A stretch of DNA of 64,000 nt from an uncultured SAR86 cluster bacterium (GTDB lineage Bacteria > Pseudomonadota > Gammaproteobacteria > Magnimaribacterales > D2472). This document shows positions 23,369-30,505 of this stretch, piece after piece (position 1 is the stretch's first letter; each line of letters opens with the position of its first letter). The translations under genes were made by a program, and so were the position numbers. Where the stretch lies: contig CACKRJ010000003.1 of NCBI GenBank assembly GCA_902602595.1, forward strand, positions 1 through 64,000, written 5' to 3'. Under the pieces are notes generated by a model. The model worked only from the letters and a program-made list of their open reading frames with translations. It had not been told where the DNA came from and made no database searches.

Positions 23369-25372
23369 TTAGGGTATGTAGTGAATGGGTGATGACCAAA
23401 CACGCTCTTGAATTGTTTTATGCATGTCAGATCTTGGTTCAACATTGTTTCTAATAGCATCCCAAGTGCTCCATCTGCAAGTAGGATTCTCCAGTGCTCT
23501 TACATAATAAAAAGCTCTCTGCTCAAATTTGAAGGTTGGATCAGTCCAAAATGTTTTTAGTTCAGCTGCTCCAACATCTTGAGAAAATTCGCAATTAGAA
23601 ATATCAACCTTGGCATTATTATCTGGACATAGGTAAGTATCTGGATCAGGTACTCCTCCATCAGAACATGCGACATCAAATACCTGCTCCTGTGGATCAC
23701 CATTATTATCTACATATCCTTTAATAATTTGCACTCTCTGCAAAGGTGCCGTAAAAGCATCCCTTACAGCCCATACAAAGAAACTAGGTGTTTGCTGATC
23801 AATACCATCTAGATCCGCTCCCATTGTTTCAGCGTTGGTATATAAGTATTCAATTAAATCATTGTCGTTGATTTTATCTTTGTATAAATCATAGCCAGCA
23901 AAAAATCTCACTGTCATTCTGGGTCCAGATGTTGCAAATGATTCTTTGCGTCTAAAAGCGTCATAAATACTATTCCTCGTATTTTCTTCAGCCCATACGC
24001 CAGCAAGACCAGCTGCACCCCATGTAATTGCAGATGAATTCATATATTTATTACCATCAACTTCTTCAAACGATTGATCTGATTCAAGCATAGCTGGATC
24101 GGTAACGGGAATAGAACCCCTTAGGGCAGCGCTAGAATCTAATAAGCCTATTTTAGAAAAGAAATTATCTTCTTCTTGAGAAGAAGCAGCAGTATGAGTA
24201 TCACTAGAGCCAATAAATCCAAATTTATATGGATTAAAGTCATCTTTTTGTTCCATTTTAATACCCTCTAACAATGCATCTCGAACATAGCTTCCTTTGG
24301 GCTCCGAAAAACTTTGAGTTGCAACTTTGTATGGCATGATCTCAAAATCTGCCCATTCATCATTTGTAGAAAGCGCTGGATGAGTATCTGAAGTTCCTTT
24401 TACTTGAGTTATTTCAACTATCGGTTCATTTCGCATTCTTAGTTGAGCATATTCTTTGGTGAATGGTTTACCAAAAGAATCTTTTAAGGCAAACATAAAA
24501 CCATCAGATCCATTTGAATTATGCGGAATCGCTAAACTCTCAATGCCGTCTTCTCTTAATCTATCCATCCATTGCCATAAACCTTCAGGATCATTCGAAT
24601 TGGCTCTACTATAAGGCACTGAAGGAATACGATTACCATCTCCTCTAAAAATTACATTTCTATGAAGATTGCCCATGTCAGGAGTTGATGCGGTATATTC
24701 ATAACCAATAAAAGTTGTAAAATTTCCAGGATCGTTATGCCTTTGCGCGGCACCAACCGTATCAGCCCATGCCCTTCGGCTTACACTATCTACGTATCTA
24801 ATATCAAGCTTTTGCTCTCTTAAAGCAGTTACAGTATTTATTAAAAAACCTCCAAAAGCCTCTGTTCTTCGAGGGATGGTTGAGATATTTAAATTTTCAG
24901 GACTATTAATGTCATTAACTTGAATGCTAGATGGAGCTTCATAATATGGTGTCCCTGGAGTTGCTGCCTCCTCAACATGTCCTAAAAAAGTTCCATGATC
25001 AGTCACGCCATAAAAATCTAGAGGCCTATCCAAACTGATATCAAAACCCGCTGGATGCTTAATAGATTTTCCCTTAGCGAACTCGTATGCATCATCAGGT
25101 GTTGCCAAAGTACCAAAAATATAAGCATCGAATGAATAAGTGGTATGAACATGCAAATCACCAAATAAAGGTATCCTAGATGAACTGAGTTTTGGATCCA
25201 TGTTCATGTATGGGTCTATGGCTTGAGAATCCCAGTCAATGGGCTGCTGACTCGCAAGACCTACTCTAGCACCTGCTATATTCAAAAAACTGTCAGACTC
25301 AATCTCTTCGATAGGTTCTGAGCAGCTAATAATTGCTAAAAAGATGAATAATAAACCTAAATTTTTATACAT
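23369..25372 (-). CDS. DUF3604 family lipoprotein
   Basis: A 667-residue exported protein with a lipoprotein-like leader (IISC, Cys about residue 17). It shows the PHP-like metal motif DLHVHTTYSFDAYIFGT and the later VTDHGTFLGH and FIGSSDTHTA, all characteristic of DUF3604. The family is widespread in marine bacteria, has a phosphoesterase-like fold, and its substrate is unknown. It is first in a minus-strand set with the MBL hydrolase and the DUF2237 gene, which supports a lipid or phosphodiester role. Confidence 0.88.
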   Translation of the reverse strand: MYKNLGLLFIFLAIISCSEPIEEIESDSFLNIAGARVGLASQQPIDWDSQAIDPYMNMDPKLSSSRIPLFGDLHVHTTYSFDAYIFGTLATPDDAYEFAKGKSIKHPAGFDISLDRPLDFYGVTDHGTFLGHVEEAATPGTPYYEAPSSIQVNDINSPENLNISTIPRRTEAFGGFLINTVTALREQKLDIRYVDSVSRRAWADTVGAAQRHNDPGNFTTFIGYEYTASTPDMGNLHRNVIFRGDGNRIPSVPYSRANSNDPEGLWQWMDRLREDGIESLAIPHNSNGSDGFMFALKDSFGKPFTKEYAQLRMRNEPIVEITQVKGTSDTHPALSTNDEWADFEIMPYKVATQSFSEPKGSYVRDALLEGIKMEQKDDFNPYKFGFIGSSDTHTAASSQEEDNFFSKIGLLDSSAALRGSIPVTDPAMLESDQSFEEVDGNKYMNSSAITWGAAGLAGVWAEENTRNSIYDAFRRKESFATSGPRMTVRFFAGYDLYKDKINDNDLIEYLYTNAETMGADLDGIDQQTPSFFVWAVRDAFTAPLQRVQIIKGYVDNNGDPQEQVFDVACSDGGVPDPDTYLCPDNNAKVDISNCEFSQDVGAAELKTFWTDPTFKFEQRAFYYVRALENPTCRWSTWDAIRNNVEPRSDMHKTIQERVWSSPIHYIP

Positions 25373-28072: not shown

Positions 28073-28933
28073 TCAGGACTTTGTCTTATTTGATGAATTA
28101 GCAAAGTACATCCCCATCATAACAAATATAAAACCACCAAGAATAATTAACGTTATTTTTTCCTGAAGAAATATAGCACCCCAGATAATGCTAAATACTG
28201 GTAGAAGATATGTAAGAGTGGCTGTCTTAACAGCACCAATTTTGTCAATCAATCTAACATAAGCCAAGTAGCCTAAACCAGTTGAAATAACTGCCAACCA
28301 TAACAATGCTAGAATAGAATTTATATCTGGCATTTCATTTTGTAAATTAAAAGAAGCCAGGGGAATCATAAGCAAACCTCCAAATAACATCGACCAACCT
28401 ATTAGAACGATTTTATCTGAATTTGAATGATACTTTTGGAGATATACAGCGTTAAATGCATAGCATAAAGAGCCAATCATCGCGCACATACTTGCAATAA
28501 ATGTAGTTGATCCATTAGATGGATTTACCAGAATTAATACGCCAATAAAACCAAGAAACAACCCAATTATCTGCTTTAAAGTTACGGATTCTTTTAACCA
28601 AAAGTATGCAATGACAGTGGTTAAAAATGCAGTTGTGCCATTTAGTATTCCAAGCATATTTGAAGTTGCTCCCAGTGAAGCAAAAGCAAACATTGAAAAA
28701 GGAATAGAATTGCTCACTATTGCAATAATCAAGATTGATGGGAAATAAGGCTTAAACAATTGCCTTTTGCTCTCTCTTAACAAGAAAGGCAGGAAAACTA
28801 TGCCTGCAATTAATAATCGTAAAGTCACTAGAAGAATTGGCCCAAAAACTACCGCAGATATTTTTATAAACATAAAAGCGCTGCCCCAAATAGCAGCCAA
28901 TGCAGTTAGTAAAATCCAGTCTTTTAATTCCAT
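28073..28933 (-). CDS. EamA/DMT-family transporter
   Basis: A 286-residue membrane protein with about ten hydrophobic helices forming two EamA repeats (first repeat begins WILLTALAAIWGSAFMFIKIS, second near GFIGVLILVNPS). Drug/metabolite transporters of this kind usually export amino acids or metabolites. It is first in a set with the rhodanese and VOC genes. A structured region with tiny ORFs and an intrinsic terminator (29014-29040) lies directly upstream on the same strand, so expression may be controlled by read-through. Confidence 0.88.
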   Translation of the reverse strand: MELKDWILLTALAAIWGSAFMFIKISAVVFGPILLVTLRLLIAGIVFLPFLLRESKRQLFKPYFPSILIIAIVSNSIPFSMFAFASLGATSNMLGILNGTTAFLTTVIAYFWLKESVTLKQIIGLFLGFIGVLILVNPSNGSTTFIASMCAMIGSLCYAFNAVYLQKYHSNSDKIVLIGWSMLFGGLLMIPLASFNLQNEMPDINSILALLWLAVISTGLGYLAYVRLIDKIGAVKTATLTYLLPVFSIIWGAIFLQEKITLIILGGFIFVMMGMYFANSSNKTKS

Positions 28934-29013
28934 TGATTACTATCAGTTTTGAATGATGAAGAATTTTAAACTAATAAAAAAATTTAGGTTGATAATTTAA
29001 ATATAAATTATCT

Positions 29014-29040
29014 AAAAAGAAGCCTCCGAAAGGAGGCTTC
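29014..29040 (-). terminator. intrinsic terminator or attenuator upstream of the DMT gene
   Basis: On the minus strand a perfect 9-bp stem (GAAGCCTCC / GGAGGCTTC, plus-strand 29019-29027 and 29032-29040) with a 4-base loop is followed by TTTTT (29018-29014). It lies about 80 bases before the transporter ATG. This is a textbook Rho-independent terminator. Confidence 0.85.
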
Positions 29041-29043
29041 AAA

Positions 29044-29069
29044 CTATCAGAGTTAAATAAGTCTGATAG
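29044..29069. repeat. inverted repeat in the leader
   Basis: CTATCAGA at 29044-29051 and its exact complement TCTGATAG at 29062-29069 form an 8-bp hairpin with a 10-base loop, immediately before the terminator on the minus-strand transcript. It overlaps the end of the third tiny ORF, so translation there would melt it. Confidence 0.6.
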
Positions 29070-29224
29070 GCGAATTCGGTAATTCACCTCTTGTCAAAAG
29101 GCGAACCCTCCGTTTCCTAATTTAATATAAATACTAATAAGATCACCTCCTGTGCAAGGGCATTAAAACAAGCATAAACAAATCCCCTTAGTAATTTGTA
29201 TATGCGACATCTAATTAAATTATA
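29053..29224 (-). promoter_or_regulatory. structured leader with three possible tiny ORFs
   Basis: This fills most of the gap between the 77-aa gene and the DMT gene. A TATAAT box (plus-strand 29219-29224) has a weak -35. Downstream, AAGGGG with 8-base spacing precedes ATG 29175 and a 10-codon ORF (MLVLMPLHRR, stop at 29143). Its last codons form AGGAGGTGATC, an 11-base match to the 16S anti-Shine-Dalgarno tail; the only start at good spacing is a rare ATT (29138), opening a 14-codon ORF that ends at 29094 with a TTGA overlap. A TTG at 29097, 8 bases after GGAGGG, opens the third ORF (MTRGELPNSPIRLI, stop at 29053). Whether they are translated is unknown; the layout resembles a translated attenuator leader. 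Confidence 0.5.
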
Positions 29225-29273
29225 TAGAGAAATCCTTTAAATTAAAGATTGTTGTAAAGCAAAAAGTGAATAC

Positions 29274-29507
29274 TTAGTGTAATAATTCTGGTTGATAATA
29301 TTCTGTGTTTTCAACCAAACTTAGCTTAATTGATTGGATCTCTTTTGGCTCTTGAATAGTATTAATATCTAAATACTCAATTGCTTTTTGTATATCTGCA
29401 CCAAAATATTTAAAGGCTATAGTCTTTAAGCCTGCACTTTTATCAACAAAAGCCTCATACTCGTTAAAGATTGGATCTAAAGGGTTTAAATGTATTAAAT
29501 TATTCAT
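29274..29507 (-). CDS. orphan 77-aa protein downstream of an SOS box
   Basis: A 77-residue acidic, soluble-looking protein with no signal peptide, no membrane segment and no family I recognise. The start is ATG at 29507. The striking feature is upstream: a nearly perfect LexA box at 29518-29537, ending 11 bases before the start, with a fitting promoter. The protein is therefore probably made during DNA damage. Small SOS proteins elsewhere include DinI, SulA and TisB-type peptides, but I see no similarity to them. No ribosome site is visible, so translation may start on a very short leader. Transcription could continue into the tiny-ORF leader and stop at the terminator at 29014. Confidence 0.65.
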   Translation of the reverse strand: MNNLIHLNPLDPIFNEYEAFVDKSAGLKTIAFKYFGADIQKAIEYLDINTIQEPKEIQSIKLSLVENTEYYQPELLH

Positions 29508-29517
29508 AATATTATTA

Positions 29518-29537
29518 TACTGTATATTTATACAGTA
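29518..29537. promoter_or_regulatory. LexA-binding site (SOS box)
   Basis: TACTGTATATTTATACAGTA differs from the E. coli consensus SOS box at one central base. The outer CTGT...ACAG halves are perfect, and the 20-mer is an exact inverted repeat around a TT centre. It overlaps the -10 box and start of transcription of the minus-strand promoter at 29537-29565. It also lies 68 bases upstream of the plus-strand SnoaL-like gene, so it could control either or both. Confidence 0.85.
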
Positions 29538-29565
29538 TTTAATAACATTATTAAAACTAAGTCAA
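29537..29565 (-). promoter_or_regulatory. putative promoter of the 77-aa SOS gene
   Basis: On the minus strand, TTGACT (29565-29560) and TTAAAT (29542-29537) are 17 bases apart. Transcription would begin within the LexA box, the usual arrangement for SOS repression. Confidence 0.5.
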
Positions 29566-29605: not shown

Positions 29606-30115
29606 ATGAAAAATAATAATATCAAAGACAGAATTGAATCTATTCATGCTGTTAGCACTATTAAAAATTTAAAATTTAAATATTGGAATGCTTGCGATTT
29701 AAAAAAACCTGCTGAAATTCTTAGTTGTTTTTGTATGGATGATGTTTACATTAATTTTGAAGATTTTGGTATCTTCTCTTCAGCTAAAGCCATGGTAAAA
29801 AAATATGAGCTTGATTCATGTCATGATCATTTGCTTGAACAGCATGCAGGTAAAAATGAAATTATTAAATTACTATCAAGCAACGAGGCATCGGGGTTTT
29901 GGTCATTATCCTATAACTTAATTGATACTCTAAAAAATATTAATCTTTATATTACTGGCACCTACGAAGACTTATATGTTCGTGATGAGAATAATAATTG
30001 GCTCATTAAAGAAACAGTCTTCAAAAAAAGAACCAGTATGTATAGATCATTATCTTCAGGTCAATGCTCCAACCCAAGAATTTATAGAAGCTTAGATGGC
30101 AAAAAGATTATCTAA
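29606..30115 (+). CDS. SnoaL/NTF2-like protein
   Basis: A 169-residue cytoplasmic protein with the SnoaL_4 / NTF2-like pattern: an N-terminal helix (IHAVSTIKNLKFKYWNACDL), a catalytic-type region with CMDDVYINFEDFG, and a C-terminal strand YEDLYVRDENNNWLIKETVFKKR. Related proteins include polyketide cyclases, dehydratases and the small subunit of ring-hydroxylating dioxygenases, so function cannot be fixed. Its 3' end overlaps the convergent VOC gene by 24 bases. The SOS box is upstream, which may or may not affect it. Confidence 0.75.
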   Translation: MKNNNIKDRIESIHAVSTIKNLKFKYWNACDLKKPAEILSCFCMDDVYINFEDFGIFSSAKAMVKKYELDSCHDHLLEQHAGKNEIIKLLSSNEASGFWSLSYNLIDTLKNINLYITGTYEDLYVRDENNNWLIKETVFKKRTSMYRSLSSGQCSNPRIYRSLDGKKII

Positions 30116-30505
30116 GTTTTTAAAGGCTTTAAATTCAAGCGCGTTTCCACTTGGATCTTTAAGAAACATTGTGCGCTGCTCACCTGGTTTGTCTGCAAAA
30201 CGAACTTTAGGTTCAATAATGAAAATTTGGTTTTTATTTTTTAATTGCTTTACAAGAGCGTCGAACTGATTAAAGTTCAGGATCACTCCAAAATGTGGAA
30301 CTGGTACTTCATCCCCATCAACGGGATTAGTGTTTACTCTGTTAGTTTCTTCGACAAAATGACAAACCAGCTGATGACCAAATAAGTTAAAATCAATCCA
30401 AGAGTCACTTGACCTACCTCTCTGACACCCAAGTGTGTTTTCATAAAACTCAGCTGCTGTAACTAAATCATTGACAGGTATAGCTAAGTGAAATGGATTC
30501 TTCAT
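30092..30505 (-). CDS. VOC family protein
   Basis: A 137-residue vicinal oxygen chelate protein. The start FHLAIPVNDLVTAAEFYENTLGC and the end RTMFLKDPSGNALEFKAF are diagnostic; H6 and E near residue 126 would be metal ligands. This subgroup resembles glyoxalase-like or dioxygenase-like enzymes. It overlaps the convergent SnoaL-like gene by 24 bases and is divergent from the DUF885 gene. Confidence 0.87.
   Translation of the reverse strand: MKNPFHLAIPVNDLVTAAEFYENTLGCQRGRSSDSWIDFNLFGHQLVCHFVEETNRVNTNPVDGDEVPVPHFGVILNFNQFDALVKQLKNKNQIFIIEPKVRFADKPGEQRTMFLKDPSGNALEFKAFKNLDNLFAI

Follow-up and report, generated by a model that had tools for sequence, protein, structure and literature searches.

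SAR86 bacteria belong to the abundant bacteria of sunlit ocean waters, and the literature that we searched contained no paper combining 'SAR86' and 'SOS response'. The 64,000-nucleotide stretch of a SAR86 genome analysed here (the window) contains a 20-base site resembling a LexA box close to the start of a 77-aa ORF. Does this ORF belong to the SOS response of its host and, if so, what might its product do? An earlier note on this DNA had inferred LexA control and proposed a damage-induced protein, perhaps a checkpoint protein or a nuclease inhibitor. The host genome is 1.35 Mb and 83% complete. Coordinates are collected in Table 1.

Table 1. Features of the small ORF, its surroundings and the well-matched LexA sites of the host genome (plain positions are those of the window; positions with C1, C3 or C5 are those of host contigs)
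Feature	Position	Strand	Evidence or remark
EamA transporter gene	28073-28933	-	neighbour
77-aa ORF, SOS-controlled (probable), SAR86-specific family	29274..29507	-	orthologs; overall dN/dS ~0.11
C-terminal peptide YQPELLH, residues 71-77, candidate beta-clamp-binding motif	29277..29297	-	Q72 invariant, E74 nearly so; motif counts
Variable linker, predicted disordered, ~residues 49-65	29313..29363	-	pLDDT; alignment
Predicted three-helix N-terminal domain, residues 11-48	29364..29477	-	AlphaFold2; invariant residues; dN/dS 0.066 (residues 1-48)
LexA box TACTGTATATTTATACAGTA (19/20)	29518..29537	.	18-20/20 at 67/67 ortholog loci
Sigma-70-like promoter TTGACT-17-TTAAAT	29537..29565	-	sequence; -10 abuts LexA box, 1-base overlap
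SnoaL-like protein gene	29606-30115	+	neighbour, divergent from small ORF
Glyoxalase-like protein gene	30092-30505	-	neighbour
LexA site before umuD-umuC	C1:62218		18-19/20
LexA site before lexA	C1:88853		18-19/20
LexA site before recA	C5:14132		18-19/20
LexA site before 77-aa ORF	C3:29520		18-19/20

LexA operators in the window and in the host genome

The box TACTGTATATTTATACAGTA differs from the E. coli SOS consensus TACTGTATATATATACAGTA at a single central base, as the earlier note had it. It is the only site in the 64 kb window with three mismatches or fewer; 0.01 such sites are expected from shuffled sequence. Upstream of the box on the minus strand lie TTGACT (29565-29560), a 17-base spacer and TTAAAT (29542-29537). 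The reported overlap between box and promoter can thus be read in the sequence and amounts to one shared base. This promoter was absent from the output of a generic promoter scan. The ATG of the ORF (29507-29505) starts 10 bases past the box, not 11 as had been noted. A high-scoring operator of the CTGTN8ACAG type accordingly overlaps the promoter of the 77-aa ORF.

We found 11 CTGTN8ACAG sites in the host genome. Four of them match the consensus at 18-19 of 20 positions, the remaining seven at only 10-12. The four strong sites precede umuD-umuC, lexA, recA and the 77-aa ORF, so that lexA and recA of the same genome carry an operator of the same type. Across 20 genomes of the SAR86 order the strict pattern yielded 1-5 sites per genome; these precede recA, lexA, umuDC and, in a family-dependent manner, a small protein, and a few that fit the consensus poorly probably arose by chance. 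Genes at LexA sites were assigned from their translated starts rather than by profile searches, UmuC being the exception. Given the box at the orthologs described below (18-20/20 at 67 loci) and the same box at lexA, recA and umuDC, the control by LexA that had earlier been inferred is very likely.

Two further arrangements were seen at LexA boxes of the order. In three genomes of another SAR86 family (f3; L136, L139, L142) a 19/20 box sits right at the start of an unrelated protein of 61-62 aa that probably has a membrane helix, and the gene is divergent from a DUF3604-like gene; the window has a DUF3604 gene as well (23369-25372), ~4 kb from the small ORF. At six loci (L072, L121, L137, L140, L144, L146) the lexA box separates lexA from a divergent gene that starts ...IGI[ST]SRALFDLD... 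and, because of this position, may also be LexA-controlled. We take its product to resemble a cytosolic 5'-nucleotidase.

Conservation of the ORF together with its box

A search with the single protein recovered the ORF in 19 of 26 genomes for the genus and in 68 of 107 for the family; a profile search raised the latter to 71, all of them SAR86, and many of the other genomes are incomplete. A contig scan gave 49 loci with nearly all record titles naming SAR86, the few others being metagenome bins labelled generically or, once, probably wrongly; a complete genome recorded as isolate D2474-A1-1 is among the carriers of the gene. In a class-wide sample of 369 genomes, matches were confined to the genome of the window and a single further member of the family, both SAR86; the other 367, which lie outside the family, gave no match. 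No relatives were found in viral contigs. In a second SAR86 family of the order (f4), weak profile matches proved to be divergent homologs of 54-56 aa, with the end of an 18/20 LexA box overlapping their ATG.

The box matched the consensus at 18-20 of 20 positions at every one of 67 family ortholog loci, which span several species. The start codon lay 2-14 bases past it with a single exception, a locus whose start call is doubtful. Two promoter layouts recurred: TTGAC 22 bases before the box (29/67 loci) and TTGAC abutting the box, which then fills the 17-base spacer (12/67). The earlier note had proposed joint conservation of box and ORF in related genomes as a check, and this held at the family loci examined; it had named an ORF lacking the box, a box lacking any ORF, or a broken frame, as counting against its reading. 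No ORF without the box was seen, every intact or truncated ortholog examined having an 18-20/20 box at its start codon. Among ~70 orthologs one was frame-broken (L104, G104:C3:105500-113500) and one had lost its tail (L058/L189), both with the box intact. At L104 decay and sequencing error are indistinguishable.

Short ORFs and AT-rich palindromes are common, which would speak for a chance box before a spurious ORF. The probability of this is practically nil here: 0.01 such sites are expected per window, box and ORF are conserved together at dozens of loci, which refutes this reading, and dN/dS is ~0.1. The label 'orphan' in the earlier note is apt insofar as no family model matches the protein; it does not fit a gene that is conserved in SAR86 and not specific to a strain. 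Judged from sequence, the small ORF appears to be a core SOS gene of SAR86.

The neighbours of the ORF encode an EamA transporter, a SnoaL-like protein and a glyoxalase-like protein, and we agree with the earlier note that no known SOS gene adjoins it. Since the gene on the SnoaL-like side varies between genera and the small ORF stays, we assigned the box to the small ORF and rejected the divergent SnoaL-like gene as its target. The flanking genes change between genera and no partner gene is conserved beside the ORF. In particular, there is no adjacent conserved antitoxin gene of the kind found in SocAB and RipAB; the small ORF stands alone.

The small ORF and the EamA gene are separated by a conserved non-coding element (29001-29225, minus strand), which has TATAAT upstream and a terminator at 29019-29040. 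It contains long invariant stretches (GGAGGTGRTCYTATTAGTATT... and CCTTTTGACA), a 5' stem with many compensatory changes among 29 SAR86 sequences, and a AGGAGGTGATC stretch complementary to the 3' end of 16S. Rfam returned no family at threshold. It may be a structured RNA not described before, or else the EamA transporter gene's leader.

A conserved N-terminal domain and a conserved tail

Codon comparison within the genus put dN/dS at 0.066 over residues 1-48 and at 0.052 over residues 68-77; both ends of the protein are under purifying selection. An AlphaFold2 model built with 46 sequences has helices at residues 12-19, 23-34 and 39-46, with block means of ~86-92 over residues 11-40. The linker, which varies in length and sequence across the alignment, has a pLDDT below 50 at residues 50-64, and the C-terminal stretch is of intermediate confidence. 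Invariant in the 46 aligned sequences are M1, D11, K23, A31, F32, F35 and Q72. There is no evident membrane segment.

The search of the protein by profile methods, also proposed earlier, returned scattered chance-level matches only when the family was compared with Pfam, NCBIfam, PHROG and PDB sequences. Neither the full model nor the N-terminal domain alone gave a significant match in fold searches, and we gave up a UBA-like or HTH-like interpretation of the three helices because nothing supported it.

The family tails resemble beta-clamp-binding motifs, for which a 2024 review gives Q-phi-x-[L/M]-[F/L] or Q-phi-x-[L/M]-x-[F/L], often in disordered or terminal segments (PMC11139829). By genus they read QPELLH (window genus), QPELI, QPELF, QLAMF, QLELL, QLELF(S), QLEFSF, QMEFSF, QLEFTF, QLEFAF and QLELPF. 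The tail is placed C-terminally after the low-confidence linker, an accessible, terminal position. A relaxed motif occurs near the C-terminus of all 46 aligned members and in none of 533 background proteins (further SAR86 ORFs, 150 aa or longer, at the same loci); because the relaxed pattern was written after the family had been seen, this comparison gauges how unusual the tail is and is no independent test. The strict motif is exact in 11 of the 46; in most members position 4 is F or position 2 is P. The copy in the window, QPELLH, is a weaker form with Pro at position 2, and in the MutL motif a Pro at this position reportedly makes the Gln contact less favourable (PMC11139829). Among the f4 homologs, which keep the box and the N-terminal domain, a recognisable motif is missing in 5 of 6.

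The tails thus look like canonical or near-canonical beta-clamp-binding motifs, and the family probably binds the sliding clamp; for the QPELLH form of the window we would say so with less assurance. One in four members of the very small host regulon (lexA, recA, umuDC and the 77-aa ORF) is an undescribed protein with a clamp-type tail.

Clamp motifs were also compared among the SAR86 polymerases. UmuC was the sole Y-family polymerase found, in 28 of 30 genomes of the order searched, and reads QQSLF (host), QYSLF, QQLLF, QMNLF or QGNLF at the Pol V motif position. We had considered that the small protein might supply a missing clamp hook to UmuC; with UmuC having a motif of its own, this was rejected. 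DnaE of the family (L208-L215) has no recognisable C-terminal clamp motif, and its internal one (SGDLF or similar, ending ...DLF) appears to have lost its Gln; E. coli Pol III alpha is listed with ...SEQVELEFD (PMC11139829). A Gln-type tail peptide could therefore compete well.

A proposed role at the replication fork

The tail that looks like a sliding-clamp hook, together with the shared DNA-damage switch, makes action at the replication fork during DNA damage probable. Our most likely reading, to which we give slightly better than even confidence, is a fork effector induced by SOS, which docks on the sliding clamp and there restrains DNA synthesis or re-routes it. In the undamaged cell LexA on the promoter-overlapping box would shut the gene. 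Upon DNA damage LexA would be cleaved, and the gene would be switched on along with recA, lexA and umuDC. Its product would be a two-part microprotein, a three-helix N-terminal domain joined by a flexible linker to a terminal peptide that would dock in the hydrophobic pocket of the beta clamp. With the pocket held at the fork, Pol III would most likely be slowed and exchange to Pol V (UmuD'2C) eased; alternatively, a partner held by the N-terminal domain would be brought to the clamp. We take a brake or exchange factor as the best guess because the pocket is common to Pol III and Pol V and because overexpression of the clamp peptide MGPRQLDLF is reported to inhibit growth of E. coli (PMC11139829). 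The earlier suggestion of a checkpoint protein or nuclease inhibitor would thereby be narrowed to a clamp-binding fork effector, which fits 'checkpoint'. The boldest form, a dedicated SOS replication brake that occupies the clamp pocket after damage, stops Pol III and hands the clamp to Pol V, is doubtful but conceivable.

The peptide might instead only localise the protein, as a clamp-tethered adaptor whose N-terminal domain recruits a repair enzyme or protease to the fork. Two separately conserved modules with a variable linker between them would suit such a protein, as would the f4 homologs that retain the N-terminal domain without a clear motif. That these homologs mostly keep the domain without the motif, and that L058/L189 has lost the tail, counts against our favoured reading, and the N-terminal domain must therefore have a role of its own; perhaps it binds a partner. 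However, no partner gene is conserved alongside, the flanks changing between genera, and we consider a pure adaptor rather unlikely.

SulA, SidA and other SOS division inhibitors are small lineage-specific effectors in LexA regulons, and SulA was found in none of 30 genomes of the SAR86 order by a search that recovers it in E. coli. The small protein could then be the SAR86 substitute for SulA, inhibiting division through its N-terminal domain and using the tail for another purpose such as turnover; the boxed f3 protein with its probable membrane helix would fit a swap of small SOS effectors. Homology to SulA was rejected, with no profile match (PF03846; 36 members scanned) and no SulA in those genomes. 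The substitute reading leaves the family-specific invariant Gln and the clamp-like tail unexplained, and the protein has no evident membrane segment. We regard it as quite unlikely.

DinI and YebG are small LexA-controlled proteins that the SAR86 protein resembles in size and in strong SOS control. A functional analogue of DinI, an acidic modulator of RecA filaments or UmuD cleavage that tunes the SOS signal, would be consistent with co-regulation with recA and umuDC and with an acidic pI (mean 5.2; 4.6 for the window copy). Acidity is not conserved, however, as the pI spans 4.1-9.7 across members. There is no profile match to DinI in Pfam, NCBIfam or PDB, the N-terminal domain is predicted all-helical without strands, and the C-terminal motif would go unexplained, all of which makes this role highly unlikely.

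Relation to known systems and significance

Like known clamp-motif proteins such as Pol III alpha (QVELEFD), Pol II (QLGLF), Pol V (QLNLF) and Hda (PMC11139829), the clamp-binding fork effector that we favour has a hydrophobic peptide that begins with Gln and is terminal or lies in a disordered segment; where this peptide reads QLEFSF, it is similar to the hexameric motif of Pol III alpha. The known proteins are polymerases, subunits of the clamp loader, repair proteins or Hda, whereas the SAR86 protein has 70-77 aa, ~40 structured residues plus a tail, and no recognised enzymatic domain. SocB of Caulobacter and RipA of pneumococcus are small chromosomal toxins whose reported target is the hydrophobic pocket of the sliding clamp, with interference in replication (PMC9690074, PMC12795458). 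Each is part of a toxin-antitoxin pair, and SocB sets off SOS; unlike them, the SAR86 gene itself appears to be LexA-controlled and is solitary, with no conserved partner gene. From SulA and SidA the protein differs in having no SulA homology, no evident membrane helix and a clamp-type tail.

The protein is best filed as a new SAR86-specific member of the LexA regulon and as a candidate, not a proven, clamp-binding protein. If it does bind the clamp, it would show a compact way in which DNA damage is signalled to the replication fork, and studies of polymerase exchange would gain a small natural ligand of the clamp. Were it a dedicated brake, a streamlined bacterium without SulA and with one translesion polymerase would have a checkpoint that acts on the clamp itself.
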